From: Parasphingorhabdus sp. SCSIO 66989
Lineage (GTDB): Bacteria; Pseudomonadota; Alphaproteobacteria; Sphingomonadales; Sphingomonadaceae
Direction: 5' to 3'
Length of the DNA: 64,000 nt
Assembly (NCBI RefSeq): GCF_032852305.1
Contig: NZ_CP136594.1
Coordinates: 1,773,501 to 1,837,500, forward strand
Part shown: positions 9,810 to 38,868 of the stretch, one piece after another
How the letters are laid out: each line of letters begins with the position of its first letter
Numbering within the stretch: position 1 is the first letter of the stretch
Position numbers and translations under genes: made by a program
Notes under the pieces: generated by a model
Seen by the model: the letters and a program-made list of their open reading frames with translations, nothing else
Databases searched by the model: none
Told to the model about the DNA's origin: nothing

Positions 9810-9859
9810 CCAAAACGGTTTTACAATAATTGTTTTGGTCCGAACCCAATCTTGTTCGG
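9810..9859 (+). promoter_or_regulatory. Two stem-loops in the adhesin 5' leader
   Basis: CCAAAAC (9810-9816) pairs with GTTTTGG (9832-9838), and CCGAAC (9840-9845) pairs with GTTCGG (9854-9859). They sit at the very start of the predicted transcript, where they could stabilise the mRNA or take part in post-transcriptional control. No known riboswitch was recognised. The rest of the 411-base gap (9579-9989) shows nothing further. Confidence 0.35.
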
Positions 9860-9989
9860 TTTGTTCCTCTTTGTTCACCCTTCTATTTGGCACGATGAAC
9901 AAGAACTCTATGGTCTGCAAATACAGCCCCTCCAATATGCGGCGTTTTTGCAAGGCCAGGTAACCAAATTACATGCACAGGGGACCACC

Positions 9990-18900: not shown

Positions 18901-21900
18901 GCTCGCAACTGTTCGCCACCAATCAGGCGGTCGAACAGCTTGCAACGGGTCAAGTTGGTCCTTTCGTATCGGAGAATGCAGGTGGTGATCCTGCCCCGTC
19001 CAATATCGGGCCAAACTCTGTAGCGGGTGGCTTTGGCGCTGTGGCAAATGGTGCTGGAGCGACGGCAGTTGGTAACGACTCCACTGCAACGGGCGATGAT
19101 GCGACAGCATTCGGCTTTGCAGCAGACGCGCTGGGTGTGGACTCAACGGCAATCGGTGCGACCGCAGTTGCTGGCGGCAACGGGTCGGTCGTCGTGGGCT
19201 TCCAGGCCGTAGACAACGCTGTGGCTAACTCGACTGTGCTTGGCAATGGCGCAAGCATTGCTGCGGGCGTGACGCAGAACAGCGTTGCTCTGGGTCAGGG
19301 CTCGACGGTTGCGGCTGACGTGACCGGAACCACCGATGTTACCATCACCAACACCGATGGCAGCACGACCTTTGGCGGCTTTGCCGGAACCACGCCTGCT
19401 GGCGCGGTCTCTGTTGGCTCTGTAGGCAATGAGCGTGTGATCACCAATGTTGCTGCCGGTGCGGTGACCGCGACTTCGACCGATGCGATCAACGGTTCGC
19501 AACTCTTCTCGGTCGCGACAGAGGTGAACAACAACGCGCAGGCCATCGCCAATGGCGCTGGCAGCCAGTTCATCACGGAGGACTTCCCCAATAGCGTTGT
19601 ACCAACCGCAACCGGGTTAGATGCCTCTGCGGGCGGTAACAATGCCCGTGCGCTGGGAAATCAGTCGGTTGCTATCGGTGATCAGGCTCTCGCACAGGAG
19701 CAGACTTCAATCGCTATTGGTGGCGAATCGAGTGTTACCAGTGGCCCGAGCGGTATTGCTATCGGCTTTAGAGCAAGCGCCGTTGGCGACGGCGTCGGCG
19801 GTGGTGGTGTTGTTATTGGTGATAACGCTTCGGCTATTGGCTCCAGCACAGTCGCTGTGGGCCGCGGTAACCAGGCCTTGTCCAATGGGTCGACCGTAGT
19901 AGGTAACGGCAGCTCGGTTGGTACTGGTTCGGACAGCGGTATCGCTATCGGTAACAATGCTGCTGTAGCCGATAACGCACTTCGCGGTGTGGCGATTGGT
20001 GACGGCGCGGGTGCAGACGCTGAAGACTCGATGGCCTTCGGGTCACGCGCCAGCGCGCAATATGCGGGCAGCGTTGCCATTGGTGCAGACAGTGACACCG
20101 GCGCTGCGGCACCGATGGGCACCGGCTATGTCACGGGCGATGCGGCCCCGGCATCGGTGGTCAGCTTCGGCTCTGCAGGTAATGAGCGTCGTCTGACCAA
20201 TGTAGCCGCTGGTTCGGATGCGACCGATGCGGTCAATGTCAGCCAGCTGCAGCAGCAGACGGAGAATATCGACAACATCATCTCGCCGACCAACGACATC
20301 TTTGATGATACCACTGGTCAGCTGGTGGGCGGCGATGTCGTGACGGTTGATGGCACTGGCTATGGTTCGGTCGAAGAAGCCGTTCAGGCTGTTGCAGGTA
20401 ACACCGGCCAGTTTGTCACCAACAACTTTGCGGGCACCACCGCTCCGGTGGCAAGTGCGGCCGGTGCTTCTGCCGGTGGCGATGGCGCTGAGGCGACAGG
20501 AATCGACGCTGTTGCCATTGGTCGTATTGCCAATGCTTCGGGCGAAGCCGCGACTGCAGTTGGCTCTGAAACCATAGCATCCGGCACGGGCGCATCTGCC
20601 TTTGGTGACGATGCCAACGCTCTGGCTGATTTCTCGACGGCCTTGGGTGACGGTGCGGATGTTAACGGTGTACTGAGCGCGGGCGGTGTGGCTGTTGGTG
20701 CCGACGCTGAAGTGAACAACGCTCAAGGCGGTGTCGCTATTGGTAGTGGGGCACGTGTCGGTGATCCGGCGACGCCTACGACTGTTGCGGCCGGAGGTGT
20801 TGCTATTGGTGGCTTGGCGCGCGCCAATAATGCCACCACCACAGCAGTGGGTACGGGCGCGATTGCCAACAATGTTGGTGATGTTGCTCTGGGTTCAGGC
20901 AGCGTGAGCGCGGCGGCTAACCCGACCGCGAATGCAACAATCGCAGGCACGACCTACAACTTTGCCGGGGATGCCCCGACCAGTGTTGTCTCCGTTGGTG
21001 CGGTTGGCGCTGAGCGTCAAATCACCAACGTCGCTGCCGGTCAGATCACGGCAACGTCAACTGATGCCGTCAACGGCTCGCAACTGTTCGCCACCAATCA
21101 GGCGGTTGAACAGATTGCAACGGGTCAGGTAGGTCCGTTCGTATCGGAGAATGCCGCAGGCGATCCTGATCCATCCAATGCCGGCATTGATGCGGTTGCA
21201 GGTGGCTTTGGTGCGCAGGCTAATGCCGCTCAGGCGACCGCTGTTGGTAATGACAGTCAGGCGAATGCAGCCAATGCGGCAGCCTTTGGTTATGATGCTC
21301 AGGCGAACGTCGCCAATGCTGTTGCGTTGGGCTCCGGCGCGCGTGCACTGGGTGTTGGTGATGTGGCCATCGGCGCAGGTACGGTTACCGCCGCCTCCGC
21401 TGGTGCGGCCTATGGCACTGCTGCGACGAACCCCGGCAACGGTGTGGTCAGTGTAGGTGACCGCCGTATTCAGGGCGTTGCTGATGGCTCTGCCGATGAT
21501 GAGGCAGTCAATGTCGCTCAGCTGCGTAACCAGGCTGACGAGATTGATGCTCTGCTCGGCAGCAATGACCTGCTGGATGCCAATGGCGATCCAACCGGCA
21601 ATACGCTGGCGACAATCGGTACTGCTCCACAGACAACCGTTCAGGGTGCGCTCGAAGCGCAGGATGTGATTGTTACCGAACAGGGCAACAGTACAGCATC
21701 TTCGTTCAGCACGGCTTCGACCTATGACGAAACCACAGGTACGGTGACGGCAAGCCTCGATTATGATGGCACCACCTACAACAATGTTCAGGAGGTGGTG
21801 AACAACATCGAAGGTGACATCACCAATATCACCAATGGTGATGTTGGCCTGGTACAGCAAGCGGGTGTTCCGGGTGCGGGCAACGCCAACCCGATTACGG

Positions 21901-24596
21901 TTGGTGCGGCTACTGGCGGCACGGTCGTTGACTTTACCGGCACGGACGGTGAGCGGACGCTTAGCGGTGTGGCTGCTGGTACTGCTGGAACCGATGCGGT
22001 GAACATCGATCAGGCGCAGGCTGCGGCTGATGCGGGTGCGGCAACCTTTGGCGGCGGTGCTGCCTTTGACGTTGCAACCGGAGTTGCAACCGCACCAACC
22101 TTCACCGTGGGTAATGTCGACTCCGACAATGTCGCCGATGCGATTACCGCAGCGGACGACAAGGCAGACCAAACCGGTGGCGACACCGCGACGGCCTTTG
22201 GCGGCGCATCGACCTATGACCCCAATACGGGCGAATTGGTTGCAAGCCTCGATTACGATGGTGGCACGTTCGACAATGTTCAGGATGTCGTGAACAACAT
22301 CGAAGGCGACATCACCAATATCACCAACGGTACTGATGGTCCGTTCCGCTCCGAAAACGCAGCTATGGATGCTGATCCGTCGAATGTCGGTGAAAATGCT
22401 GTAGCGGGTGGCTTCGGTGCTGTCGCAGATGCCGATGGCGCGACCGCGGTTGGTAATGACTCTGTGGCTGCGGGAGACGATGCAACAGCACTGGGCTTCT
22501 CTGCTCAGGCAAATGGTCTGGAATCGACGGCCCTCGGCGCGACATCGTCTGCACAGGGTGCGGGCTCCGTAGCCATTGGCTATGGTGCAGATGCAACCGC
22601 TGACGGTGATATCGCGCTTGGCGCTGGCACGGTCACTGCCGCTTCCACCGATGCCTCATATGGCACCGCGGAAGCTGCTCCGACCACGGGCGTTGCCTCG
22701 GTTGGTGGTCGTCGTATCCAGGGTGTCGCTGCTGGTGCCGCAGATGATGAGGCGGTCAACGTCGCTCAGTTGCGTAACCAAGCGGATGCGATCAATGATG
22801 TGATCGGTCAGGATGTCATCAACCCGGATGGTACCAACAATACCACCAATATCGTGTTCAACACACCTGATGGCACCACCGCTGGTGATGTCACCACGGC
22901 GATCGAGAACATCACAACCTCGGTTGACGATAACAGCACAGAGATCAACAATATCATCAACGGTAATGTCGGTCTGGTGCAGCAGGACGGTGATATTGAT
23001 CCGACCAATACCAACCCGATTACGGTTGGTGCGGAAACCGGTGGCACGGAAGTGGACTTCGCCAATGCCAATGATGAAGATCGTGTTCTGACCAGTGTTG
23101 CTGACGGTGCGATTGATGCGACATCGACCGATGCCATTAACGGTTCGCAGCTGTTCGGCGTTGGTGACAACGTCAACAACTTCTTCGGTTCCGGTGATGT
23201 CTTTGCCGGCGTCGATCCGGTGTTCGTAACGCCCAATGGCGGCACTGCGAACAATGTGGCGGATGCCTTCCAGGAGGTCTCTACACAGGTTGATGGCAAC
23301 ACCACCAATATCACCAACAACACCACGGCGATTGAGAACATCACCAACGGCACCGCTGGCCTGGTTCAGCAGGAAGGTGGCGCTCCGGGTGATGGCCTGA
23401 TCACGGTAGGTGCGGAAACCCAGGGTACGGAAGTATCTCTGGCCAATTCCGATGGTGCCGATCGCACGCTTTCGGGCGTTGCCGATGGCGAGGTCAGCGA
23501 TACATCGAATGAGGCGGTCAATGGCTCGCAGCTGTTCGCAACCAATGAGTTGGTTGAGGGCAACACAACGGCCATCGAAAACCTCGATAATCGGGTGACG
23601 ACCAATGAGACCAATATCGCCGGTAACACCACCGCGATTGAGAACCTCGACAACCGCGTCACGACCAACGAGACCAATATTGCGGGCAACACGACCGCGA
23701 TTGAAAATCTTGATGGTCGGGTCACGAATAACGAGACCAATATCGCGGGCAACACCACGGCGATTGAGAATATCGATGGTCGGGTAACCAACAACCGCAC
23801 CGATATTGACAATCTGATCAATGGTACTGCCGGTCTGGTGCAGCAGGATCCAACCACTCGTGAAATAACCGTGGGTGCGGATACTGATGGTGACCGTATT
23901 ATTCTCAACAATAATGCCGGAGAAACCCGGACGGTTGCAGGCGTTACCGATGGTCTGATCTCTGCAGACTCAACCGAGGCAGTGAATGGCTCACAGCTAT
24001 TCGCCACCAATGAGAAGGTCACGCAGAACATGATGGACATTGCCGCCAATCATGTGAAGATCCAGAACAATACCAATGCGATCAATGATCTGAACAACAC
24101 CGCGGTGCGCTATGACACTGATATGAACGGTGCTCCGATCAACCAGATCACTCTGGGTCAGAGCGCTGGACTTGATGGCCCGGTCATCATCCGCAATGTC
24201 GCCAATGGCGTTGCCGATAATGATGCGGTCAATGTCGGTCAGCTGCGTGATGCGGTGCGTGAAGCCAATGACTATACCGATGCACGGGTCATGGAATTGG
24301 CGACACAGGTTGATGGTCGTTTGAACGATCTTGAGTTCAACCTGGCTGACTACCGTCAGGAAGCACAGGCCGGTATCGCGTCGGTCATGGCGAGCTCGCA
24401 AATTCGCTATGATGACCGTCCGGGCAAATTGTCCATCGGTGCCGGTGTTGGTGGCTTCCTGGGTCAGATTTCGGTCGCCTCGGGTATCGGTTACACCAAT
24501 GAAGATCAGGACGTCCGCATCAATGCTGGCTTCGGTTACAACCCGGCCCGCAACGAAGCGACCTGGGGCGCAGGTGCAACCTTCACCCTGAACTGA
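9990..24596 (+). CDS. Giant trimeric autotransporter adhesin (YadA-like, type Vc)
   Basis: About 4,868 residues. The ATG at 9990 has an AGGGGA ribosome-binding site six bases upstream; a TTG at 9852 adds 46 unrelated residues and is rejected. Residues 1-74 form a long export signal (basic/polar first 50, hydrophobic core about 51-68, likely cleavage after AIA at 74). Head repeats of the SVAIGxxAxA type with YadA-like turns fill most of residues 110 to 4,250. They are cut by about 19 neck-type motifs (TDAINGSQLF, DAVNVSQL, EAVNVAQLRNQ), the first near residue 586 and the last near 4,745. Stalk sequence (ITNGTxGLVQQ, FGG-like modules, coiled coil) dominates from about 4,270. The last 105 residues are the YadA anchor (KLSIGAGVGGFLGQISVASG, then GFGYNPARNEATWGAGATF). 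It would be displayed as a homotrimer for adhesion or biofilm. Lys is nearly absent, and the only Cys I noticed are C78 and C107 at the exposed tip. Confidence 0.95.
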   Translation: MRNNIEANAAAESHIPYNQDRGGRVVKTNWGAGSYAPTMRFFGGLMSGASATSMALAAMFAGTMMVVPTDTAIAGDRCVLQDRGTGGSTTGGPDFGGRANGLDALACGNEARTDGNRAVAVGFDANALEANAIAIGARATVVAGSASAIAIGRDTRVNASASRAVLMGAGSTIGNGAGTSSVDSVVIGSNSTLVGASSTIIGTENTLTGNFSFAVGDNLNLTGDSSVAVGSNADMVGNFSVGVGASTDVDGDLATGVGSGATAQGTEATALGFRSNATGLYATSLGSRANALAQGAIAIGGDGDDSAFAGGTTSIGAEALGLNAIAIGVDSYSSSQNSVALGTNSQATNLNGIAIGTSAAANNTNAIAIGDDSDAEFFGVAVGSISQATGQSSLALGRDAQASQLEAVAAGFESRASGQRAIAVGGQSQATADDAIAVGSDSIASGVDAIAIGRNAVSLGSVALGAGAQASGGSAFGDGAIAGTDGAGNAQSTGNTAIGEGATANVVNNTTALGDGAIANVTAGDVALGAGSITAAPNLVGSTTIGGLTLDATQYAGSASSVVSVGSAGAERQITNVAPGRVTATSTDAINGSQLFELAEQVSTISSGGGGAIDYVNVNGTATGAGSNTAANSGALGVESIAIGDSTSAANNGDIAIGRDASAAGANTVALGVASETLGQESVSIGLLAGANGVAGSSFNTAIGGRSGQNVDGTGNAAIGTNAGNNVSGDQNFAGGLGAGTGVQGVDNVSLGTDAGDFVTGNRNIALGVRSLAGTNAAAVTGEQNVAIGFGALSGTSGNNNVAIGREVNNIGGEINSTTAIGDDAETRRDNATAIGLASRANATEGDVALGWGSSTSASTGAAYFTQDANGTRGIVSVGDRRIQGVLAGSAPTEAVNVSQLSGVAEAIDGFVSPTNSLFDETANGAPTTGPVLTVDVDGDGTAENFNTIEEAVQNVAANAGGESQFVTEDFDNSARPTATGNDSSAGGNAARALGDRSVAIGNASSALRVAGVAIGSGATTNGAHSVAIGGDYSGDSASTNGDLTTAVGAGSTANGFGTSAFGTNAEARNTLALAVGFNSTAEGVASIAIAGAQAGPNGQGTIGIGPTLVDNSSIGIGEASISGVQRFTTPFDPIDPNAVGSYNIAIGFTSTANTGDNNVALGRDALSQGGNATALGFGAQATAAGAFAGGSGAQASGVDAIAIGTGAISLGSQAIGAGAQASGGGAAFGDGAIAGTDGAGNAQSAGNTAIGEGATANVVGNTTALGFGATAAVTAGDVALGANSVTTAAAGTSYVTGVADLGGGVVSVGSTGAERRIQNVAAGAAATDAVNVSQLQQQTENIDAIISPTNNIFDDTTGQLAGGDVVTVDGTGYGSVEEAVQAVADGAEIDYVNVNGTTTGAGSNDADNSGALGANAIAIGDSALAQDASSTAIGTGANSGAVNSIAMGTGANTATDANASVAIGLNAETLAGAGSGVAIGNGSSSGAVGAVAIGSQANGEGANSFAGGTNARALGGTSVALGNQTLADGTSSVAVGTNAQANQIGTVAVGQLSTASQSRAVAVGRESLADQTGATAIGTLTDATGTNATAIGSGAQATANGAFAGGFGAEASGADAIAIGTGAISLGSQAIGAGAQASGGGVALGDNAIAGTDGGATPVALTARNVALGEGAIASTIDDSVALGANSVDGGINLVGDTTVGGVTLTATDYAGSAASVVSVGDAANNIERQITNVAPGRVTDTSTDAINGSQLFALTEQVANGAGSQFITQGFAPANAPVASGGRASAGGQDAVAAGANSVALGADSGTDAASSGSVALGFDSSVTNAFGGVAIGGASEATQEMGVSVGAFSEASGRGAIAIGGSTAVSDPNGATGSGADSIAIGVTSSASQAEAIAIGREASASVAGSVALGARSTTGAAVAVTDATVGGTTFGTNTTAGTFAGSAPTSVVSVGSAGNERQITNVAAGQITETSTDAINGSQLWAVADVVDNIATGETGPFVSENAAGDPAPSNTGTDAVAGGFGAQANAAQATAIGNDSQANVDRATALGFGAQANAAAATALGTASVAATDDATAVGFSADALGADSTAVGATALAGGNVSAVVGFEATDNSVANSTVLGSNASIAAGVTQRSVALGQGSTVAADVNGTADVTITNTDGSTTFGGFAGTAPVGAVSVGSAGNERVITNVAAGAVTATSTDAINGSQLFSVATEVNNNAQDIANIVNNGAGSQFVTEDFAGSTAPNASGTNASAGGDGAVASAESALALGVGATASDGTSNIAIGDGALADGNIAGTGNALAIGTNADAGETGSIALGADSSVGDVASNGVAIGTNASVGTDSDGSVVLGAGATALAAGDANLDPAVTSTAGSTVIGAGAESRSTGTVALGDRALAEGIAAIASGSRAVANGAGAIATGNRAQATADRSIAMGVDGTDGNALGAIAGGVDSVAIGTDATTLNANDVALGSNSVTAAAVQVDTATVGGTTFGDNTTAGTFAGNTPSSVVSVGSVGNERQITNVAAGQITETSTDAINGSQLWAVADVVDDLATGEAGPFVSDNTAGAADPTAAGADASAGGFGAVADGAASTVIGNSALDNGVANSTVLGNGASITAGVTQSSVALGQGSTVAADVVGTTDVTIGAVGSSTTFGGFAGTTPAGAVSVGTAGGERVITNVAAGAVTATSTDAINGSQLFSVATEVNNNTQDIANITNGTTQLPYFKANSTLPGDPDAQANGDDAIAIGTSSVADGNFSVAIGAGSEVTTGQGIAIGQSASSLDAHAISIGLSSRANGDGAVSLGRRANSFGSSAVALGSETAALAETATAIGFASRANDLSSTAIGYLADSFGDNSIAMGTRATTAMGANDAVAIGTSAQGGAVNAIAIGNAANATAVGDVALGSGSVTAAAVDTPNVTIAGTTYDFAGSSAAGGTAPASVVSVGDAGAERQITNVAAGQITATSTDAVNGSQLFATNQAVEQLATGQVGPFVSENAGGDPAPSNIGPNSVAGGFGAVANGAGATAVGNDSTATGDDATAFGFAADALGVDSTAIGATAVAGGNGSVVVGFQAVDNAVANSTVLGNGASIAAGVTQNSVALGQGSTVAADVTGTTDVTITNTDGSTTFGGFAGTTPAGAVSVGSVGNERVITNVAAGAVTATSTDAINGSQLFSVATEVNNNAQAIANGAGSQFITEDFPNSVVPTATGLDASAGGNNARALGNQSVAIGDQALAQEQTSIAIGGESSVTSGPSGIAIGFRASAVGDGVGGGGVVIGDNASAIGSSTVAVGRGNQALSNGSTVVGNGSSVGTGSDSGIAIGNNAAVADNALRGVAIGDGAGADAEDSMAFGSRASAQYAGSVAIGADSDTGAAAPMGTGYVTGDAAPASVVSFGSAGNERRLTNVAAGSDATDAVNVSQLQQQTENIDNIISPTNDIFDDTTGQLVGGDVVTVDGTGYGSVEEAVQAVAGNTGQFVTNNFAGTTAPVASAAGASAGGDGAEATGIDAVAIGRIANASGEAATAVGSETIASGTGASAFGDDANALADFSTALGDGADVNGVLSAGGVAVGADAEVNNAQGGVAIGSGARVGDPATPTTVAAGGVAIGGLARANNATTTAVGTGAIANNVGDVALGSGSVSAAANPTANATIAGTTYNFAGDAPTSVVSVGAVGAERQITNVAAGQITATSTDAVNGSQLFATNQAVEQIATGQVGPFVSENAAGDPDPSNAGIDAVAGGFGAQANAAQATAVGNDSQANAANAAAFGYDAQANVANAVALGSGARALGVGDVAIGAGTVTAASAGAAYGTAATNPGNGVVSVGDRRIQGVADGSADDEAVNVAQLRNQADEIDALLGSNDLLDANGDPTGNTLATIGTAPQTTVQGALEAQDVIVTEQGNSTASSFSTASTYDETTGTVTASLDYDGTTYNNVQEVVNNIEGDITNITNGDVGLVQQAGVPGAGNANPITVGAATGGTVVDFTGTDGERTLSGVAAGTAGTDAVNIDQAQAAADAGAATFGGGAAFDVATGVATAPTFTVGNVDSDNVADAITAADDKADQTGGDTATAFGGASTYDPNTGELVASLDYDGGTFDNVQDVVNNIEGDITNITNGTDGPFRSENAAMDADPSNVGENAVAGGFGAVADADGATAVGNDSVAAGDDATALGFSAQANGLESTALGATSSAQGAGSVAIGYGADATADGDIALGAGTVTAASTDASYGTAEAAPTTGVASVGGRRIQGVAAGAADDEAVNVAQLRNQADAINDVIGQDVINPDGTNNTTNIVFNTPDGTTAGDVTTAIENITTSVDDNSTEINNIINGNVGLVQQDGDIDPTNTNPITVGAETGGTEVDFANANDEDRVLTSVADGAIDATSTDAINGSQLFGVGDNVNNFFGSGDVFAGVDPVFVTPNGGTANNVADAFQEVSTQVDGNTTNITNNTTAIENITNGTAGLVQQEGGAPGDGLITVGAETQGTEVSLANSDGADRTLSGVADGEVSDTSNEAVNGSQLFATNELVEGNTTAIENLDNRVTTNETNIAGNTTAIENLDNRVTTNETNIAGNTTAIENLDGRVTNNETNIAGNTTAIENIDGRVTNNRTDIDNLINGTAGLVQQDPTTREITVGADTDGDRIILNNNAGETRTVAGVTDGLISADSTEAVNGSQLFATNEKVTQNMMDIAANHVKIQNNTNAINDLNNTAVRYDTDMNGAPINQITLGQSAGLDGPVIIRNVANGVADNDAVNVGQLRDAVREANDYTDARVMELATQVDGRLNDLEFNLADYRQEAQAGIASVMASSQIRYDDRPGKLSIGAGVGGFLGQISVASGIGYTNEDQDVRINAGFGYNPARNEATWGAGATFTLN
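23559..23810 (+). repeat. Four tandem 63-bp repeats coding a coiled-coil stalk segment
   Basis: Four in-frame units begin at 23559, 23622, 23685 and 23748. Each codes a 21-residue unit of the form NTTAIENLDNRVTTNETNI plus AG, i.e. exactly three heptads. Units one to three differ mainly by synonymous changes and N/G swaps; the fourth diverges at its end (NNRTDIDNL). They correspond to about residues 4,524-4,607, just before the last ITNGTAGLVQQ-type module. Such repeats can change copy number and so stalk length. They are coding sequence, not CRISPR. Confidence 0.9.
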
Positions 24597-30992: not shown

Positions 30993-33900
30993 TTATCGCC
31001 CTAACAGATTCGCAATGCTCTGCTGATCAAACTTCAGGCGGAAGGTCACAAATGGCCCGCTTCGGGTGTAGCGGCTTTCTTCAAAGTCACGGTCTTCAAA
31101 ACCGACAAAGTTGTAACCCACTGAGATATAGCCATTTTGGAACGGGGTGACGCCAATGGTCGGGCCACCGGCCCAGGCGATGCTGTCGGCATTGGTGCCG
31201 ATGCGCACTGTGCCTGCAGCGCCGGCATCGATGGTGTCGCTCAGGTCAAAGCGGAAATCCGCGCCGACGACATTGCTCCAACCCTCGACATCATCCGGGC
31301 CAAAGCGGTCGAACACATATCGCGTGCCCCAGAAGATGCTGTATTCGCCGCGTTCGACAAAGCTGCGGTCGCGACTGCCTAATGTCCCATCGCGCTCATC
31401 GATAGGCGTGTAGTTGATGCTGACACTGTTGATCAGGCGGCGCGAAGTCACATCGCCATCAACGGTAAGCAGCGCGCCGCCAATCGGCCCGGCTTCCCCG
31501 GCGACAGCATTGCGTACACTGTCCTCGCGGAACTCAAGACGCTGTAACCATGACCAGCGGCTATTGTCCGGGCGATGCGCCCAGCTCAATTCACCTTCAA
31601 TCGTGTCGGTGCGGGGACCACCATCCTGTTCGGCGCGGAAATAGCTGAACAGGCCGCCCAGATTGCTGCCATTGCCAATCTGCTTCAGCGCGGCGCTGGT
31701 AAAGCCATAGCGGTCACCCAGGCCACCGGCGCGATATTCAGCACGGCTTGCCCAGCTCCAGTTTTTGTGGCGATAGGTCGCGCCCGCGGTGACGGCGACA
31801 AAGTCCTCTGTAAGGCCGCCGGTCTGCGGCAGGAAACCGCCACTGGCGACTGGCTGGAGCGGGTTGATCACATTGGCTTCGTCGATAGCGCCATTGAGTG
31901 TCTGGTTGCCATCAAGTGAGAAATCGACCGACCATTTTTCGCTCAGCTTTAATGATTGCGAGAAACCATAAGCGGCGAAGCTGCGCGGGCCGAATTCGGA
32001 GATATCCTGCTGATTGGCTGTGGCGAGGAAGCGACCACCGGCCCACGGGGTAACCTCAAAGCCGATTTGCGCGTTCTGCGCATCAAAATTCTCACCATCG
32101 GTAATCTCATAGCTGCCCAAAATCCGGACATCTTTGGTAATCGCATAGCGCGCTCCCAGGCGGTGGCGCGCCGGGAAGTCGGTGCTCTCATCCTGTCCGC
32201 CAATGGCGAAAGAGGTCTGTGCATCGAGCTCAAGCTTATTATCGAGCAGCCGCTGCGATCCGCCAAAGGTGGCGATCGTCGAGCGGTTGATTCGGCCATC
32301 GGCAAAGCGATCCTCGGCATGGGTCACGCCTCCGCGCAGTGATGTCTTGTCCGCACGATATTCCAGTTCGGCACTGGCGGCACGGCGACGTGCGTCGGTA
32401 ATCAGGAAATCCTCCTGATAACCGGTGACCGCAAGGTTGACCTTGTCGGTGAACCGGTAACGGGTATCAACGCCGAACTTGCGGGTACCGCTCTCAACGG
32501 CGTTCTGCTGGCCCAGGCCAAAATTGTTCGACTGACGGCGGACATAGGCGAGTATGTCAAAATCAGCACCATGATGCTCAGCCTCAACCAGCCATGCGGT
32601 CGCGGTTCCTGCGTCAGGCTGGCCGGTGGCGGTATCGCTTTCGCCATCAGTCACGGCGAACTCTGCGCGCACTTCGGTTTTCAGGTCCGGGCGATAGCGC
32701 AGATCGACGCCGCCCAAATTGGTGCTGGTATCGGCGGTTTCGTCATGAATTGCGGTGGCGGCGACCTGGAGCTTCTGGTCCTTGCTGCGCCAGCTGACCC
32801 GGCCACCGGCATTGGTGGCGCGCTGGCCAACGCCATCCACCTCATATTCGGCGATGATGAATTGCGGGTCGAGATTGATCCGGCTCAGCACCGGCTCACG
32901 GAAGCGCAGCGTACCGGCGATATAGTCGATATCATAATCTATATGGCGGGTCAGCTGGGTCTCGTTGACGATCCGCTCCGAGCGGAAACGGTCGCGCACC
33001 TGCAGCACGATGCGCTCGGAATTGATGATGATATCACGCGCAGAAAGCGCATAGGGACCGGTGAGGCCATTGCCTTGAATTTCCTCACGACGGAAACGGA
33101 AGGGCGTATCGGCGCCGAAAACGGTCGCAGATACCTGGTCCGAACGATATTCGGCTTTGATCCCGTTAAACGCGCGCTGATAGCGTGAGAGCTGCGATTC
33201 GCCCAGGCCGGTCTCATAATCGCCAAAGAGGGCATAAAATTGCGGACGCTCAAGGCGGATATAGAGGCGGCGAAGGCTGGCCGCGTCAAAGCGCTGCTCT
33301 GAGCGGTCGGCATAGATGGTGTAATAGCTGCGTGGATCGATGACGCCGCCAAAATCGGTCTCATCGCGTTCCTTGTCGCTGTCATAGGCCATGGTCAGCA
33401 GCCATTTGCCGAGGATCTTACCCTTTGCGTAAAGCGCTACGCGGCCATCCAGGTTTATGCTGTCATCATCATCGGCCAGCGCCTCAAGGCGGCTGTCTAA
33501 CGTATTGAAGCCAACAGTGCCGGCGGCAAAACCGACCACTGTCCATGGACGATCACCCGGTTCCAACCAGGTCTCTACCCGCTGCGGTCGGCTGACTTCG
33601 CCATCCTGGAAATTGAAATCTACCGAGACGGTGCCCGATGCTGTGGTCGGAGCGAGTTCGATATAGGCGATGCCTTCATCACCCTGAACCCGCCAAACCG
33701 GGCGCGCACGCTCAAGGCCGGAGAGCTGCTCTGCCTGTTGCGCATCAACCTCGATAGCGGGCGTATAGGGCGCAGGGACCGCAAAATCGCCTACCGCACC
33801 GTTGCGCACGGGTTTACCATCACGATCGGTCAGGCGCACCGCAATGACAGGGCGGGTGATGCCGTCCGCGATGAGCACCGATTCCTGCTTGAGGAATTCC

Positions 33901-36098
33901 GCATTGAGCGGGCTGGCGGAATAGTGGACGTCACGCGTAAGTTCCTCGACCACATTGCCGCCGCGATTGAGGACGCGCGCGCGCAGTGTGTTGGTGCGAT
34001 CGCGCAGTCCGATGCCGCGCCACAGGCTAACGACCCAGCGGCCATCGGGGCTTTTGCGGACACCTTCATAGGTGAGGGCATCGACCATCTCACCATTGAT
34101 AGTGAGGTCAACCGATTGGCCCGGCATATGCTTGATTGCGACGCGAATAGCTTTGGAGCGCGGGTTATGATCAGGTGTTGGGAACAGCCAGCCAATGCCC
34201 GCCTGTTCACCTGCAAACCAGTCACGATCACTGCCTGCAGCTTCCTGATCGGTCAGCACCTTGGGACGCACCTTTACCGGCGCAGATGATTCAGGTGCTT
34301 CGCGGGCTGTGGTTTTGCGTGCGCGGAAGTCAGCGCGCTTCAACATACCGCCCTGACCCTCGACAAAGCGTGAGATATTGCTGCCTGCGCTGCGCGTATT
34401 CTGCGCGCAGTTGACTGGTTCCATGTCGAGCGGGAAGGTAGAAGGATCAACCTGCACCACATGCAAGCCGGGCAATACGCCCTCGAAATGATAGCGGCCA
34501 TCCTGATCCGTGATGGCAAAGCGGCCATCCTGCATCATCACGCGCACACCGGCTATGCCATTGGCACCGCGAGGATCGACAGTGCACGCACCATCGGTGA
34601 TACGGCCCGTGATGGTAAAGCGGTCGCTGATCGCGTCGCGCGCGATGCGGGTAAAGGCTTCGGCGATATTGCTCTGCGTTCCGCGAGAGCCGCGCGCAGT
34701 CGCCTGGTTTACGATATCGCCGGGCAGGGCATCGGGCCGCACCTCGGTAAGATAGGTCAATAAGCCAGCACCGCCCGGTCCCAGCGCAGGCACGATCACG
34801 GTGAACCGGCGGCCATCCGGAGTTATATCCGCGGCGATGCGTTCGCCATTATAGCGAATGGTATCAGCCCGCAACCGCAGTGCAATCGGCAGCTCGTCGG
34901 TAATGGTTACTGTACCCGTGTTGAGCAGCGGGTCATTGTTACTGACTGTAATGCGATATTGCAGCACATCGCCCGGTATCGCCAGATTGGCGGATACTGT
35001 CTTTTCAAGTGAGATCGCTGCGCCGGGTTGATCCAGTGGAATGTCCAGTTGAACCGGTTCCGGGTCGGAAAGGTTGAAAATGCCGCCATAGGAGCCATCA
35101 TCAATGATGAATGGCTCGCCGTCAGGGCGGCGCAATGGGGCCAGTTCCTGCGCCGTGCGCTCAGAGGCCCATGTGTACGGTTCTGGCGGCTCTACGACAA
35201 CACGATAATCGCCCGGACGCGCAAATGGGAAGCGATAATGGCCGGGGTCAAATTCATAGGTTGCACCGCTGCTGTCTGTTACCGTCGATCCACTGATTAT
35301 GGTGGACGGGAATGCCGAAACGCCATCATTGCCGAACACTTCTGCCGGGCGTCCGGTGGCATTGTCGATCAGCGTGACACGTGCGCCTGAAACGGGCGCA
35401 CCATCATAGCTGTCAAAGACGACTCCAAAAGGATCGATCAGCACTTCGACATCCAATGTGCTGAGCAAGTTACCGCCAACATCGTCGAGGATGTCAATCT
35501 GTAGGGCACTTCCGGGCGCCACGGATAGCACGCAATTGCGTTCAACCGCTGCGGGCGGAACTGCTATCGTATTGATATATCCAACAAATTCACCGCTATT
35601 GGCTGCCGTCTCGGTGACGGTAATCACCTCGCGGTCGCCTGCTTTGGTGACCAGCTCGATATCAAAACGTTCGACCAGGCTCGCATCAGTGTTACGCGCC
35701 TGCGCATTGAGTAAGATAACCAGCGGTTCATTTGGGGTTATTGCCGTGCGCGGAGCAAGTGAAGCCGGGCTGGTCTGTATCCCGGAAAAAACGCCGGAAA
35801 ACTCGACCGGTATAGACCCGTCATTGGTTCGGCATTGTGTCGGCGGAAGGTCCATCTGGACCGCGCCAGGGGGATCATCAAACTGAAATGTTGTGATCGT
35901 AATCGGGTCTTCAGGGGGTTCTTCTATGGCAAAGTCTACCTGGTTCGACGGTCGCGATATGCGTCCGCCGATTCCATCCCATTCGATTGTCGCAGTATTG
36001 CTGATGGTCTGGGCCGTCGCTTCACCTATTGGCAAAGCGAGGCCCAGGCCAGCAATCGCGAGCGCGATGGGCTTAACAAAGGTAGCCAGGGCTTTCAT
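30993..36098 (-). CDS. Large exported protein with DUF11/Ig-like modules and predicted outer-membrane beta-barrel
   Basis: 1,701 residues. A signal peptide (MKALATFVKPIALAIAGLGL... ending TAQ at 30) is followed by ISNTATIEWDGIGG, a module also found in the 342- and 369-residue proteins upstream. Then come a carboxypeptidase-regulatory-like domain (about 220-330, GAPVSGARVTLIDNATG), a DUF11 domain (about 365-480, DVLQYRITVSNNDP), a second regulatory-like domain (about 495-590, GVRVMMQDGRFAITDQDGRY) and Ig-like sequence to about 880. From about 900 to the end, alternating polar/hydrophobic strands (RLYIRLERPQFYALFGDYET, SATVFGADTPFRFRREEI, VRILGSYEITDG) look like a large outer-membrane barrel ending GPFVTFRLKFDQQ. 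No TonB box or plug was recognised. The start has no nearby Shine-Dalgarno; AAGGAG lies 35 bases upstream inside a hairpin. Function unknown; surface display or export of its neighbours is inference. Confidence 0.72.
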   Translation of the reverse strand: MKALATFVKPIALAIAGLGLALPIGEATAQTISNTATIEWDGIGGRISRPSNQVDFAIEEPPEDPITITTFQFDDPPGAVQMDLPPTQCRTNDGSIPVEFSGVFSGIQTSPASLAPRTAITPNEPLVILLNAQARNTDASLVERFDIELVTKAGDREVITVTETAANSGEFVGYINTIAVPPAAVERNCVLSVAPGSALQIDILDDVGGNLLSTLDVEVLIDPFGVVFDSYDGAPVSGARVTLIDNATGRPAEVFGNDGVSAFPSTIISGSTVTDSSGATYEFDPGHYRFPFARPGDYRVVVEPPEPYTWASERTAQELAPLRRPDGEPFIIDDGSYGGIFNLSDPEPVQLDIPLDQPGAAISLEKTVSANLAIPGDVLQYRITVSNNDPLLNTGTVTITDELPIALRLRADTIRYNGERIAADITPDGRRFTVIVPALGPGGAGLLTYLTEVRPDALPGDIVNQATARGSRGTQSNIAEAFTRIARDAISDRFTITGRITDGACTVDPRGANGIAGVRVMMQDGRFAITDQDGRYHFEGVLPGLHVVQVDPSTFPLDMEPVNCAQNTRSAGSNISRFVEGQGGMLKRADFRARKTTAREAPESSAPVKVRPKVLTDQEAAGSDRDWFAGEQAGIGWLFPTPDHNPRSKAIRVAIKHMPGQSVDLTINGEMVDALTYEGVRKSPDGRWVVSLWRGIGLRDRTNTLRARVLNRGGNVVEELTRDVHYSASPLNAEFLKQESVLIADGITRPVIAVRLTDRDGKPVRNGAVGDFAVPAPYTPAIEVDAQQAEQLSGLERARPVWRVQGDEGIAYIELAPTTASGTVSVDFNFQDGEVSRPQRVETWLEPGDRPWTVVGFAAGTVGFNTLDSRLEALADDDDSINLDGRVALYAKGKILGKWLLTMAYDSDKERDETDFGGVIDPRSYYTIYADRSEQRFDAASLRRLYIRLERPQFYALFGDYETGLGESQLSRYQRAFNGIKAEYRSDQVSATVFGADTPFRFRREEIQGNGLTGPYALSARDIIINSERIVLQVRDRFRSERIVNETQLTRHIDYDIDYIAGTLRFREPVLSRINLDPQFIIAEYEVDGVGQRATNAGGRVSWRSKDQKLQVAATAIHDETADTSTNLGGVDLRYRPDLKTEVRAEFAVTDGESDTATGQPDAGTATAWLVEAEHHGADFDILAYVRRQSNNFGLGQQNAVESGTRKFGVDTRYRFTDKVNLAVTGYQEDFLITDARRRAASAELEYRADKTSLRGGVTHAEDRFADGRINRSTIATFGGSQRLLDNKLELDAQTSFAIGGQDESTDFPARHRLGARYAITKDVRILGSYEITDGENFDAQNAQIGFEVTPWAGGRFLATANQQDISEFGPRSFAAYGFSQSLKLSEKWSVDFSLDGNQTLNGAIDEANVINPLQPVASGGFLPQTGGLTEDFVAVTAGATYRHKNWSWASRAEYRAGGLGDRYGFTSAALKQIGNGSNLGGLFSYFRAEQDGGPRTDTIEGELSWAHRPDNSRWSWLQRLEFREDSVRNAVAGEAGPIGGALLTVDGDVTSRRLINSVSINYTPIDERDGTLGSRDRSFVERGEYSIFWGTRYVFDRFGPDDVEGWSNVVGADFRFDLSDTIDAGAAGTVRIGTNADSIAWAGGPTIGVTPFQNGYISVGYNFVGFEDRDFEESRYTRSGPFVTFRLKFDQQSIANLLGR

Positions 36099-36110
36099 CA
36101 GAACAGGAGA

Positions 36111-36144
36111 GGGTGGTCAGTCGGCTTTCTCCTTATGACCACCC
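36111..36144 (-). promoter_or_regulatory. Hairpin enclosing AAGGAG upstream of the 1,701-residue protein
   Basis: On the minus strand GGGTGGTCA and TGACCACCC form a perfect 9-bp stem with a 16-base loop that contains AAGGAG. It fills the gap between the 369-residue gene's stop and the start of the large gene. CTCTCCT, between the stem and the start codon, could pair with the loop purines. It might dampen read-through or control translation of the barrel protein. Confidence 0.5.
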
Positions 36145-36159
36145 GAACCAGAAGCTCTA

Positions 36160-37269
36160 TTAGTCGACCGTTACCCGGAAGATCAGAGTTTCCGTATCTC
36201 CTGCTGCGACATTGCCGAGATTGCCCGAAACAACCCCACCGGCTTCGCCGAGGGCCGAAGCATCGCCATTAGTACCTGTGCCATCGCATGCCGTAGCTGA
36301 AATCACACCGTTAGGCGCCGGAGGCGTATCGGTGGTGCCATTTGCAGGTGGCGTTGGGGCGGTGGTGTAGAAGGTTACATTGCCGGTATTGTTCAGATCA
36401 TCGCTGATGCTGACCGCTGCGGCATCCGCGCCGCCAGCGGCGTTGGATACGGCGATACAATATTCTACAATAGCACCCGGAATGGCTTTCGGATTGGTCG
36501 TGCCGTTAATCGGGTCCCAAAGAACCTGGCTGGTCTTGGCAACGGTGATGTCAGCAGCCAACACGGTGTAATCGTCGGTTGCGCTGAATGCAGCGTCGCG
36601 ATTGGCATCGGTATCACCAGCGGCATCCGCGAACACGGTTTCAACCGTGTTGGCACCGTCTGCTCCAGTGTCCTCTGTCAGTACTGCACCTAAAGAACCC
36701 GCGCCAGCGCCTTCTCGACCGGTGGCCGTCAGAGTAACAGCTGCAACGTCATCCGTGACCTGGCTTACGGGAATGTCGCCAAGAACAAAGACAGTTATGC
36801 TGGCATCTTCAGCCAGTTCATCAATAAATGTCTCAGTATCGGTGCCGGCGTCATACACACCATTGCCATTGCTATCGACAAAGATCTGCAGGCCAGTTGC
36901 ATCAAAATTGTCAGTGCCACCATTGGGCGCTGCACCGCCAGCCTGGTTAGTAACGCCCAGTTCAAAGTCGAGCACATCGTTAGACGTATTGGTCACGACA
37001 AAGGTGGTTACCTGGTCCTGCTGGTTCGGTGAAACCGAGGTGGTTACGGAGTCCGAGGCGGCTACCGTCAGGTTGATTTTACGGTCAACTACGAACGTAT
37101 CCGAGTTATCAACCGCTGTCTGGGCGACACCGCCGACTTCAAAATTGACGGTCACCTGGTTGGTGATGTCGGTACCGGCAGTCGTACCTTCGGCAAATGC
37201 CGGGCTACTGACCCCGATGGTCAAGGCTACGGCGGAAGCAGCCGCGGCCAGTTTTAGTTTCCTGTTCAT
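36160..37269 (-). CDS. Exported DUF11-like beta-rich protein with a Ca2+-loop-like motif
   Basis: 369 residues. An AGGAG site lies seven bases before the ATG. Signal peptide to about 26 (KLAAAASAVALTIGVSSPAFA). The mature start ITNQVTVNFEVGGVAQ matches a module in the 342- and 1,701-residue proteins. IFVDSNGNGVYDAGTDTE (about 130-150) has the D-x-N-x-N-G-x-x-D spacing of calcium-binding loops, and ELAEDASITVFVLGDIPVS follows, equivalent to the same section in the 342-residue protein. A C-terminal DUF11-like domain begins AKTSQVLWDPINGTTNPKAI and ends ETLIFRVTVD. It is very acidic with few Lys. No anchor is visible. It lies 61 bases upstream of the large barrel gene and probably shares its transcript. 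Confidence 0.68.
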   Translation of the reverse strand: MNRKLKLAAAASAVALTIGVSSPAFAEGTTAGTDITNQVTVNFEVGGVAQTAVDNSDTFVVDRKINLTVAASDSVTTSVSPNQQDQVTTFVVTNTSNDVLDFELGVTNQAGGAAPNGGTDNFDATGLQIFVDSNGNGVYDAGTDTETFIDELAEDASITVFVLGDIPVSQVTDDVAAVTLTATGREGAGAGSLGAVLTEDTGADGANTVETVFADAAGDTDANRDAAFSATDDYTVLAADITVAKTSQVLWDPINGTTNPKAIPGAIVEYCIAVSNAAGGADAAAVSISDDLNNTGNVTFYTTAPTPPANGTTDTPPAPNGVISATACDGTGTNGDASALGEAGGVVSGNLGNVAAGDTETLIFRVTVD

Positions 37270-37336
37270 TCTGGTCTCCTGTGTTAAACTTCGTATTCCC
37301 TTGTTAAGTCCTTGCCGTTTTGGTTTATCCGAACGA

Positions 37337-37367
37337 CAAAAATCGTGGCTATTTCACTACGCCACGA
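37337..37367 (-). terminator. Terminator-like hairpin inside the DUF11 gene set
   Basis: On the minus strand TCGTGGC (37367-37361) pairs perfectly with GCCACGA (37349-37343) and is followed by TTTTTG. The stop codon of the 163-residue gene lies inside the hairpin. It would end, or partly attenuate, transcription between the upstream pair (342 and 163 residues) and the downstream pair (369 and 1,701 residues). Confidence 0.65.
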
Positions 37368-37840
37368 AATGTTAATTTCCCTTCAGAACCTCTTGTTATA
37401 TCTTGTAATATTTTCCACCTAATGTGCGTTACATCGGCGGATGATGCCGCTCTGTAGCGGCCATCACCCAAGGGCACGCGCAACTCATCGAGGGAACCCC
37501 AGCTGTTTCCGCCATCGATGGAAACCTGTTCCTCGCCATCAAGCGTTTCCAGAAACGCGACGGCGCGAGGAAGGGGATTAGTGATGACAAAATCGGATAC
37601 GCGCGTGGCGCTCGCATTGCGGTAATTGATGACAAAGATCAGACGGTCTCCGGGAAGAACCTTGTCGGGGCTCTCCAGTCGGACAGATTGACGATCACCA
37701 AGCTGAGTAATGCGTTCCACAAATACTTGGCTGTTGAGCTCAATGGCACTATTTGCCGATGCAGGAGCCGCGAAACCGCCCAGGCTGGTTATCGCGAGGG
37801 CGGCAAAAAGCTGAATCAGTCGCTTAAAGGTGTGAAGCAT
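37349..37840 (-). CDS. Small exported DUF11-like protein
   Basis: 163 residues. The signal peptide is LIQLFAALAITSLGGFAAPASA (to about 29). The mature part holds one DUF11-like unit: DKVLPGDRLIFVINYRNASA, then VITNPLPRAVAFLET, then SIDGGNSWGSLDELRVP, and TRGSEGKLTFRGVVK at the end. DUF11 units are Ig-like beta sandwiches found in exported and surface proteins. Its ATG overlaps the stop of the 342-residue gene by one base (TGATG), so the two are translationally coupled. The small size suggests a periplasmic subunit or cap rather than a fibre; that is inference. Confidence 0.7.
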   Translation of the reverse strand: MLHTFKRLIQLFAALAITSLGGFAAPASANSAIELNSQVFVERITQLGDRQSVRLESPDKVLPGDRLIFVINYRNASATRVSDFVITNPLPRAVAFLETLDGEEQVSIDGGNSWGSLDELRVPLGDGRYRAASSADVTHIRWKILQDITRGSEGKLTFRGVVK

Positions 37841-38868
37841 CAGTTGACCTCCACCTGAAACGTGATTGTTCTCGTCTGATCGCCGGTAAGATCACCCAAT
37901 TGCACGGCGATCGCGGTGCCATCAAAAGCGCCGCCATCGGCGTCGGCATCGGTATCCGTCAGTGCCGCCCCTTCTAAAGTCAGGGTTTCCGGACGATAGG
38001 TGGTGTTTTCCGGGATTGGGTCACCGACAGTCAAATTGGGCAGGGTGCCGCTGCCTGTGATGGTGGCGACCAGTGTATAGGTGATTACTGACCCCGGAAC
38101 GACTGTCTCCCCGCCAAAAGGATCAGCCACTTGCGCAGACTTTTGCAGGCTGACGCTCGCTGCCTGTACCAGGAAGAAGCCGGGGGCATCATCATCGGCG
38201 CCTGTGGTGCCGACAACGGCATCCCCGCCGCCATCGCCAGCGCCATCAAAGGTTGTGCCTGGTGTGCCGGTTCCGGTGACAGCGGCAGCCGCCAGTGTGA
38301 CCTCGGCGCGATTGCCGTCAACCGGGTCAGAGGGGATATTGCTGATAATGAAGATGGTGACATTGCCGTCGGGGGCCAGCAAAGGATCATTTGAACCCGC
38401 AGCGTAAACTTCATCAACGCCGGGATCAAACACGCCATTATCGTTCGTATCAATAACAATCTGGACAAAATCGGGATCGAAATCATCACCCGGTCGAGCG
38501 GTATCAGGGGTCAGTGTAAACGCTTCCTGACCGTTACCGTTGTTGGTGACAGTGTAGGTCAGGACTTGCTGCGTGGCATCGGGTTGCGTGCCGACATCGC
38601 CAGGATCAGTCGATTCCACCCCCACATCCAGAATCTCGTCGACAATGATCGTGGCCGTATTTGACTCTCGTTCGATACGGTTGCCATTTGCGCCATCATA
38701 GGAGACGCGTGCGGTGTTCTCGATCGGCGTACCCGCTAGCGTGCCTGCCGACGGATTGGCATCTTGTGCCAATGCGATAACAGGCACAACAAAGGCCATG
38801 GCTGAGATGAGTGCAGCCGGCAATATGCGCAAATGCTGCGCAGTTTCAAAAGGTCGTAATGTGGTCAT
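37840..38868 (-). CDS. Exported DUF11-like beta-rich protein with a Ca2+-loop-like motif, first gene of the set
   Basis: 342 residues. Signal peptide ends VIALAQ at about 35. The mature start PIENTARVSYDGANGNRIE is the module shared with the 369- and 1,701-residue proteins. VIDTNDNGVFDPGVDEVY has calcium-loop spacing (D-T-N-D-N-G-x-x-D) and is placed like the loop of the 369-residue protein. GNVTIFIISNIPSDPVDGNR follows. A C-terminal DUF11-like domain runs from VSLQKSAQVADPFGG to TITFQVEVN. The two proteins are therefore paralogues with the same order of parts. AGGGG lies close to the ATG but inside a possible hairpin. It is acidic and has no membrane anchor. Confidence 0.68.
   Translation of the reverse strand: MTTLRPFETAQHLRILPAALISAMAFVVPVIALAQDANPSAGTLAGTPIENTARVSYDGANGNRIERESNTATIIVDEILDVGVESTDPGDVGTQPDATQQVLTYTVTNNGNGQEAFTLTPDTARPGDDFDPDFVQIVIDTNDNGVFDPGVDEVYAAGSNDPLLAPDGNVTIFIISNIPSDPVDGNRAEVTLAAAAVTGTGTPGTTFDGAGDGGGDAVVGTTGADDDAPGFFLVQAASVSLQKSAQVADPFGGETVVPGSVITYTLVATITGSGTLPNLTVGDPIPENTTYRPETLTLEGAALTDTDADADGGAFDGTAIAVQLGDLTGDQTRTITFQVEVN

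Follow-up and report, generated by a model that had tools for sequence, protein, structure and literature searches.

A conserved DUF11 gene cassette with a predicted giant barrel in Parasphingorhabdus sp. SCSIO 66989: a putative donor-hairpin surface fibre

In chaperone-usher pili, subunits are joined by one donor strand with a chaperone and an usher, and the tip has no donor (PMC9452303; see also PMC6615685). PMC13319060 describes the grappling-hook-like protein GhlA as a single-chain surface filament with 49 DUF11 domains arranged as beads on a string. Here we analyzed a stretch of 64,000 nucleotides from Parasphingorhabdus sp. SCSIO 66989 (contig NZ_CP136594.1, positions 1,773,501 to 1,837,500; hereafter the window), which contains four adjacent minus-strand genes, named A, B, C and D in the order of transcription (Table 1). 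On balance, sequence comparisons favour the reading that this cassette encodes a surface fibre joined by donor hairpins, with a tip formed by B or by a protein encoded elsewhere in the genome (E), a shaft of A and C, and D as the base.

Such a fibre would share with chaperone-usher pili (FimD/FimH/FimA; archaic Csu) the principle that an incomplete Ig-like subunit receives its missing part from the N-terminal extension of the subunit that follows. Further, the donorless tip adhesin and the outer-membrane barrel at the base are alike. In contrast to these pili, the donor would be a two-stranded hairpin from another domain family, DUF11, and the barrel protein D bears a donor of its own. No match to the Usher family (PF00577) was found in this genome or in D (Pfam, E <=1), and none to the PapD-like chaperone family (PF00345, PapD_N) in this genome; the E. 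coli controls were positive for both. We therefore rejected membership in the chaperone-usher class, since neither the chaperone nor the usher family was matched. Unlike single-chain DUF11 fibres such as GhlA, the chain appears to be split over several genes, each cut within the last DUF11 domain. Literature searches of open-licence texts, with most subscription journals and preprints outside their range, found no account of this cassette or of DUF11 hairpin donation. PMC11952670 alone paired 'DUF11' with 'donor strand', in passages on spore appendage anchors, and PMC8343143 did not contain DUF11 as a whole word.

N-terminal hairpins and truncated C-terminal domains

The first-pass annotation of this DNA, made from the sequence alone, had described four adjacent exported genes with a related N-terminal module in the 342-, 369- and 1,701-residue proteins and a DUF11-like protein of 163 residues. 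All four open reading frames were present, each beginning with a signal-peptide-like stretch as read by eye, and the related module was located in A, C and D. D exceeded the cut-offs of both DUF11 models (PF01345 and TIGR01451), A passed that of TIGR01451 and stayed below that of Pfam DUF11, and B was below both (E 0.12 with Pfam DUF11; E 0.0046 with TIGR01451), so the DUF11 likeness of the 163-residue protein held and is weak when the protein is taken alone. For C by itself, Pfam and NCBIfam scans gave no DUF11 call.

The last element of a DUF11 domain is a hairpin of the type 'NTATV...SNNTATV'. The N-terminal module of A, C and D resembles this final beta-hairpin in sequence, and in the hairpin of D, residues N34, A36, S51 and N52 were invariant among 12 orthologues. 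Where the domain at the other end of each protein stops was read from a DUF11 model of 134 positions, built solely from the DUF11 repeats of four large proteins from unrelated loci. On A, which was matched in 65 of 74 proteins, the model stopped at position 99 of 134 (10-90% range 97-99) and no residue of the protein remained beyond it; on C it stopped at position 98 (18 of 75 matched). On the internal domain of D, which was matched in 80 of 81 proteins, it reached a median of 119. As judged by this model, the last DUF11 domain of A ends at the final residue of the protein, just before the hairpin, and that of C does likewise where it is detectable. Among 26 C-terminal ends from eight distant or variant loci and three extra proteins, 12 halted at model positions 98-100 and at most two residues from the C-terminus; in the remaining 14, the match stopped earlier or farther from the C-terminus, or, in three, beyond position 102.

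Isolated hairpins matched the last 40 positions of the model in 50/69 (A), 61/69 (C) and 32/73 (D) cases, compared with 18, 18 and 12 shuffled hairpins and 9, 12 and 6 random segments, respectively. The motif by which the hairpins were cut out was found in 69/74 A, 69/75 C and 73/81 D proteins, as well as in 6/74 B and 3/30 E proteins, where it lay inside domains and never at the N-terminus.

We then scored chimeras in which hairpins were joined to truncated domains. The C-terminal domain of A gave 24.5 bits with Pfam DUF11 alone and 33.5, 31.9 and 32.3 bits with the hairpins of A, C and D, respectively; a shuffled hairpin gave 25.4 bits and another segment of A 23.0. B rose from 13.7 bits alone to 22.6, 22.9 and 20.9 bits with the same three hairpins (16.6 when shuffled). 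C, which had no match alone or with a shuffled hairpin, reached 27.1 bits with the hairpin of A and 25.9 with its own. Across loci, the score rose by over 3 bits when the A, C and D hairpins were added in 62/69, 69/69 and 62/70 cases for A as acceptor, 48/69, 64/69 and 51/71 for C, 33/69, 55/69 and 24/70 for B, and 6/25, 17/27 and 10/27 for E. The controls gained as much in at most 8/70 (shuffled hairpins) and 9/73 (a barrel segment) cases. In profile terms, adding the hairpins mostly restored DUF11, and shuffled ones did not.

By sequence, A and C thus have both a donor and an acceptor, B and E probably have an acceptor and lack an N-terminal hairpin, and D has a donor only, because its DUF11 domain is whole and the protein ends in the predicted barrel. 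A tip (B or E), a shaft (A and C, in any order and number) and the base D would be the simplest structure that uses every end, and we infer from these ends that the hairpins join different molecules. In the proposed fibre, subunits would be exported by Sec, after which the N-terminal hairpin of each would complete the truncated C-terminal domain of the preceding one. The tip would be E, with adhesive N-terminal domains such as a P-domain, or B; A and C would form the shaft; and the hairpin of D would occupy the last place, fixing the fibre to D's own barrel; this barrel may also serve as the exit for the subunits. The first-pass annotation had suggested that small subunits are displayed on the barrel or exported through it. 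This is supported only in part: hairpin donation, as read from sequence, would place D at the base of the fibre, and export by D is a further step that we infer.

Spread of the cassette, tip-like protein E and solitary B genes

Among 59 genomes (this one and others of its genus, family and order), exactly the same 14 were matched by A, C and D. A and C are paralogues and cross-match, yet separate places for A and C were present in each of the 14; the association of A, C and D is therefore more than chance. One genome (G016) had two complete cassettes. A scan of GTDB contigs yielded 311 related stretches, and the 80 best were retained. Among these, A, B and C lay ahead of D on the same strand in every one of the 67 named loci whose sequence upstream of D exceeded 3.3 kb (63 assigned by script and 4 by reading); in the four loci read by eye, the open frame of C overlapped that of D in three, and one had two copies of C. 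A-B-C-D is a conserved cassette. The earlier proposal of a self-contained surface or fibre system had been made to depend on co-occurrence of the four genes in related genomes, and they do occur together. A candidate that B is merely degenerate was rejected, since B was kept in 67/67 flanked loci.

The named hosts were nearly all Sphingomonadales, for example Parasphingorhabdus marina DSM 22363 and Erythrobacter longus DSM 6997, each with A-B-C-D; one, a metagenome bin, bore the label Woeseia sp. Among 299 sampled genomes of the phylum, the D model was matched over at least 850 positions of the barrel half in 23 genomes outside the family, 21 of which belonged to one family of another class. 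Any match to the D model was found in 54 of the 299, in many of them to DUF11 only. Named relatives of the cassette outside Alphaproteobacteria were found on plasmid p4 of Acinetobacter haemolyticus (CP085288.1), which encodes a B-like protein, D (2008 aa), a member of the OmpA family and an E-like protein, together with a shaft-type gene that looks frameshifted. In a D homologue of another class (L163:5962-11583), an OmpA domain (residues 716-818) lies between the surface domains and the barrel; its presence suggests that D there also grips the cell wall.

The fibre model predicted a protein without a hairpin, ending in an acceptor and bearing adhesive N-terminal domains, and a 668-aa protein of this genome meets that prediction. 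This E is unlinked to the cassette (G000:C1:3072869-3074875; L201:4869-6875). In Pfam, it matched P_proprotein (3-82/86), a first DUF11 (1-108/114) and a second, last DUF11 (8-95/114), which makes it a candidate for the tip of the A-D fibre. Of the 66 named loci that extend far enough downstream, 24 had E directly after D. Ten E proteins were scanned: two contained a P-domain, and in one from a distant cassette, encoded beside D at L164:606-1817, the N-terminal part is a full ice-binding-like domain that matches PF11999 over the whole profile (1-208/208). Thus, of the self-contained system, the predicted barrel and the co-occurrence of the genes stood, and the self-containment did not quite hold, with a tip-like protein encoded elsewhere in this genome. 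The identity of the N-terminal module, the truncated C-termini and the fifth component, E, go beyond the first-pass annotation.

B was matched in 21 of the 59 genomes, namely the 14 with A, C and D and seven more. A solitary B-type gene was recorded at L155:8855-9424, and solitary B had the same neighbourhood in two loci read by eye (L156 and L157). A DUF11 search of the seven B-only genomes gave no match in six and, in the seventh, B itself as the only match; this search also overlooks B in those six genomes, so that hairpins could be overlooked too. Where E is present, B may act as a second tip or as a chaperone for hairpins.

Predicted structures and alternative explanations

An AlphaFold2 (AF2) model of mature A (60 sequences) had a predicted local distance difference test score (pLDDT) of 94.5 and a predicted template modelling score (pTM) of 0.79, with the two strands of the hairpin confidently predicted at model residues 13-23 and 29-40. 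The middle domain (model residues 45-201) aligned to complete Ig-like domains with Z 7.5-8.5 and a root mean square deviation (rmsd) of 1.9-4, for example to 8ayh chain B (Z 8.0, rmsd 2.1, 97 aligned), and is predicted to form a whole Ig-like domain that does not need the hairpin. We rejected the idea that the hairpin is part of this middle domain, since the structural matches begin at model residues 44-47. Model residues 203-307, the C-terminal domain, aligned with MSCRAMM and Gram-positive pilin domains, namely RspB (3v10, Z 7.7) and RrgB (2y1v, Z 7.6); these Z scores are middling and the similarity is weak and generic. Strand complementation occurs in MSCRAMMs. Foldseek and VIA searches with A returned multi-Ig proteins of a generic kind, integrin alpha chains among them (Z <=9.6, with rmsd 12 over several domains), and none of these matches gave a readable partner or donor-strand fold.

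The confident fold of A alone, hairpin included, is compatible with self-closure. In that case, the N-terminal hairpin of A or C would complete its own C-terminal domain as in a circularly permuted DUF11 domain, and the cassette would encode monomeric surface or periplasmic proteins, beads held by D in some other way. Both halves are present in A and in C, and A with the A hairpin and C with the C hairpin scored well. However, cross-pairs scored no worse than self-pairs. Further, in every case read, B and E were acceptors that had no donor, and D was the reverse; for these at least, pairing must be intermolecular, and self-closure can therefore serve A and C only. We regard it as an unlikely account of the cassette.

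The AF2 model of D residues 620-1701 (56 sequences; mean pLDDT 75.6, pTM 0.69) contained many long antiparallel strands, 40 of which, each of at least 7 residues, were predicted between D852 and D1691. The last ~850 residues of D are thus predicted to form a very large outer-membrane barrel, or more than one. The barrel-like C-terminal half that the first-pass annotation had placed at residues 900-1701, and on which it had staked its proposal, was accordingly borne out by prediction. A phmmer search of D against the sequences of the Protein Data Bank (PDB) gave 0 matches at E <=1, and no C-terminal Autotransporter barrel family (type 5a) was found in D (Pfam, E <=1). The best Foldseek matches were outer-membrane proteins (SlpA, LptD, BtuB, FimD and SprA) with TM-scores of 0.1-0.3. 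D resembles SprA, the translocon of the type 9 secretion system (T9SS), and other giant barrels in its very many predicted strands; the SprA barrel has 36. The Foldseek match to SprA had E 5.4e-6 with low TM-scores (0.14/0.10), and neither a sequence match to SprA nor a T9SS family in D (Pfam) was found.

FimD stood first on the VIA list for the D barrel (Z 14.2, rmsd 7.1, 324 aligned), which would suit an arrangement in which D is only the translocon of a separate pilus and B a dedicated chaperone that shields the donor hairpins. B is also the sole small single-domain part, kept in all 67 flanked loci. However, TonB-dependent receptors and porins scored level with FimD (Z 13.7-13.3), Usher and PapD_N matches were missing from the genome and Usher from D, D itself bears a donor hairpin, and B occurs alone too. 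We consider an usher-like exporter improbable. Alternatively, D could be a receptor or porin of large size, with A, B and C as DUF11-type surface modules in which the hairpins are inherited remnants with no linking role; receptors and porins are among the best structural neighbours of the barrel, and related barrels are annotated as TonB-dependent receptors in plasmid records. A remnant would not explain why the hairpin stays at the mature N-terminus and the domain is cut at the same site in many lineages, and we give this explanation very little credence.

Returning to the donor-hairpin fibre, several results besides the lone fold of A weigh against it. On B (43/74 matched) and E (15/30), the DUF11 model stopped a median of 44 and 36 residues before the C-terminus, respectively. 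The C-terminal domains of B and E are probably truncated before the hairpin as well, and the evidence for this is therefore reading by eye together with the chimeras. Three of the distant ends (L168_7, L169_1 and L201_E) passed model position 102 before the C-terminus. The motif that picked the hairpins is itself DUF11-like, so that the test of donor identity was favoured, and shuffled hairpins control for composition only. The chimera of C with the D hairpin gave no Pfam DUF11 match, which weighs against the simplest order, C-D, and for the pairs B with D, E with A, and E with D, gains above 3 bits were seen in a minority of loci. Distance matrices (60 loci) singled out no partner pairs; the middle-domain controls correlated equally strongly. 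Further, B was present without A, C and D in seven of the 59 genomes (G003, G008, G010, G014, G019, G023 and G027), and a second B of this genome also stands alone; solitary B genes do not fit the fibre model. In a search for fusions of acceptor and donor among the long B and E frames of the 80 loci, the frames listed were stop-to-stop frames with upstream read-through and not fusions.

Related loci, neighbouring genes and significance

A sister pair of genes lies 5-17 kb beyond the left edge of the window in the same genome (G000:C1:1756519-1768208) and encodes a 2657-aa protein (L020:1519-9492) followed by a 1236-aa barrel protein (L020:9498-13208). The former contains Pfam DUF11 in eight stretches, DUF7933 repeats and one OmpA domain, and the latter is 31% identical to D854-1228. 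In contrast to the cassette, this pair has one covalent chain, a separate barrel gene and, as read by eye, no N-terminal hairpin. It is probably a covalent sister system. Similar pairs of a DUF11 protein and a barrel were common both among the sampled genomes of the phylum and in plasmid records, and the latter often name the barrel TonB-dependent receptor. We read A-B-C-D as a divided form of the sister-type fibre, which would make it a non-covalent imitation of single-chain DUF11 fibres such as the 2657-aa protein beside its related barrel.

Within the cassette, the stop of A and the start of B have one base in common, and gaps of 79 and 61 bases separate B from C and C from D, respectively. 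A-D stand between two genes named by eye, a 2-oxo acid dehydrogenase E2-like one and an AI-2E-transporter-like one on the plus strand. Elsewhere in the window, a 4914-aa open frame (9852-24596, plus strand) matches YadA_stalk in 14 stretches and YadA_head in five and, by these domains, is a giant trimeric autotransporter adhesin.

Table 1. Genes and predicted parts of the cassette, in window coordinates
Feature	Position	Strand	Description
Gene A	37840..38868	-	342 aa; shaft-type subunit by sequence: donor hairpin, middle Ig-like domain, truncated C-terminal DUF11
Gene B	37349..37840	-	163 aa; one DUF11-like domain, without donor hairpin
Gene C	36160..37269	-	369 aa; shaft-type subunit by sequence
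Gene D	30993..36098	-	1701 aa; putative base protein: donor hairpin, full DUF11, CarboxypepD_reg, predicted giant barrel
A donor hairpin (putative)	38635..38736	-	residues 45-78; strands predicted by AF2 at 48-58 and 64-75 of A
A truncated C-terminal DUF11 domain	37843..38178	-	residues 231-342; Pfam match stops at profile 84/114
C donor hairpin (putative)	37078..37179	-	residues 31-64
C truncated C-terminal DUF11-like domain	36163..36585	-	residues 229-369; no Pfam match alone
D donor hairpin (putative)	35913..36014	-	residues 29-62
D internal complete DUF11 domain	34674..35015	-	residues 362-475
D CarboxypepD_reg domain	34434..34577	-	residues 508-555
D predicted giant beta-barrel	30996..33545	-	residues ~852-1701; AF2 and structure comparison

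More broadly, we tentatively raise the possibility of a chaperone-free class of fibres in Sphingomonadales and other classes of Pseudomonadota, in which DUF11 is always cut at one place, the hairpin comes from the N-terminus of the next subunit, and the barrel not only exports the chain but also terminates it through the donor hairpin that it carries.

If the proposed fibre is correct, it would represent a building principle in which a whole hairpin, rather than one strand, is handed between DUF11 domains, and in which the membrane anchor forms part of the polymer. Further, it would give a role to short proteins that databases name 'DUF11 domain-containing' or 'hypothetical', and the order of subunits would be predictable from sequence alone (hairpin first, truncated domain last). 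The tip variants, with a P-domain or an ice-binding-like domain, suggest adhesion of aquatic bacteria to surfaces or ice.

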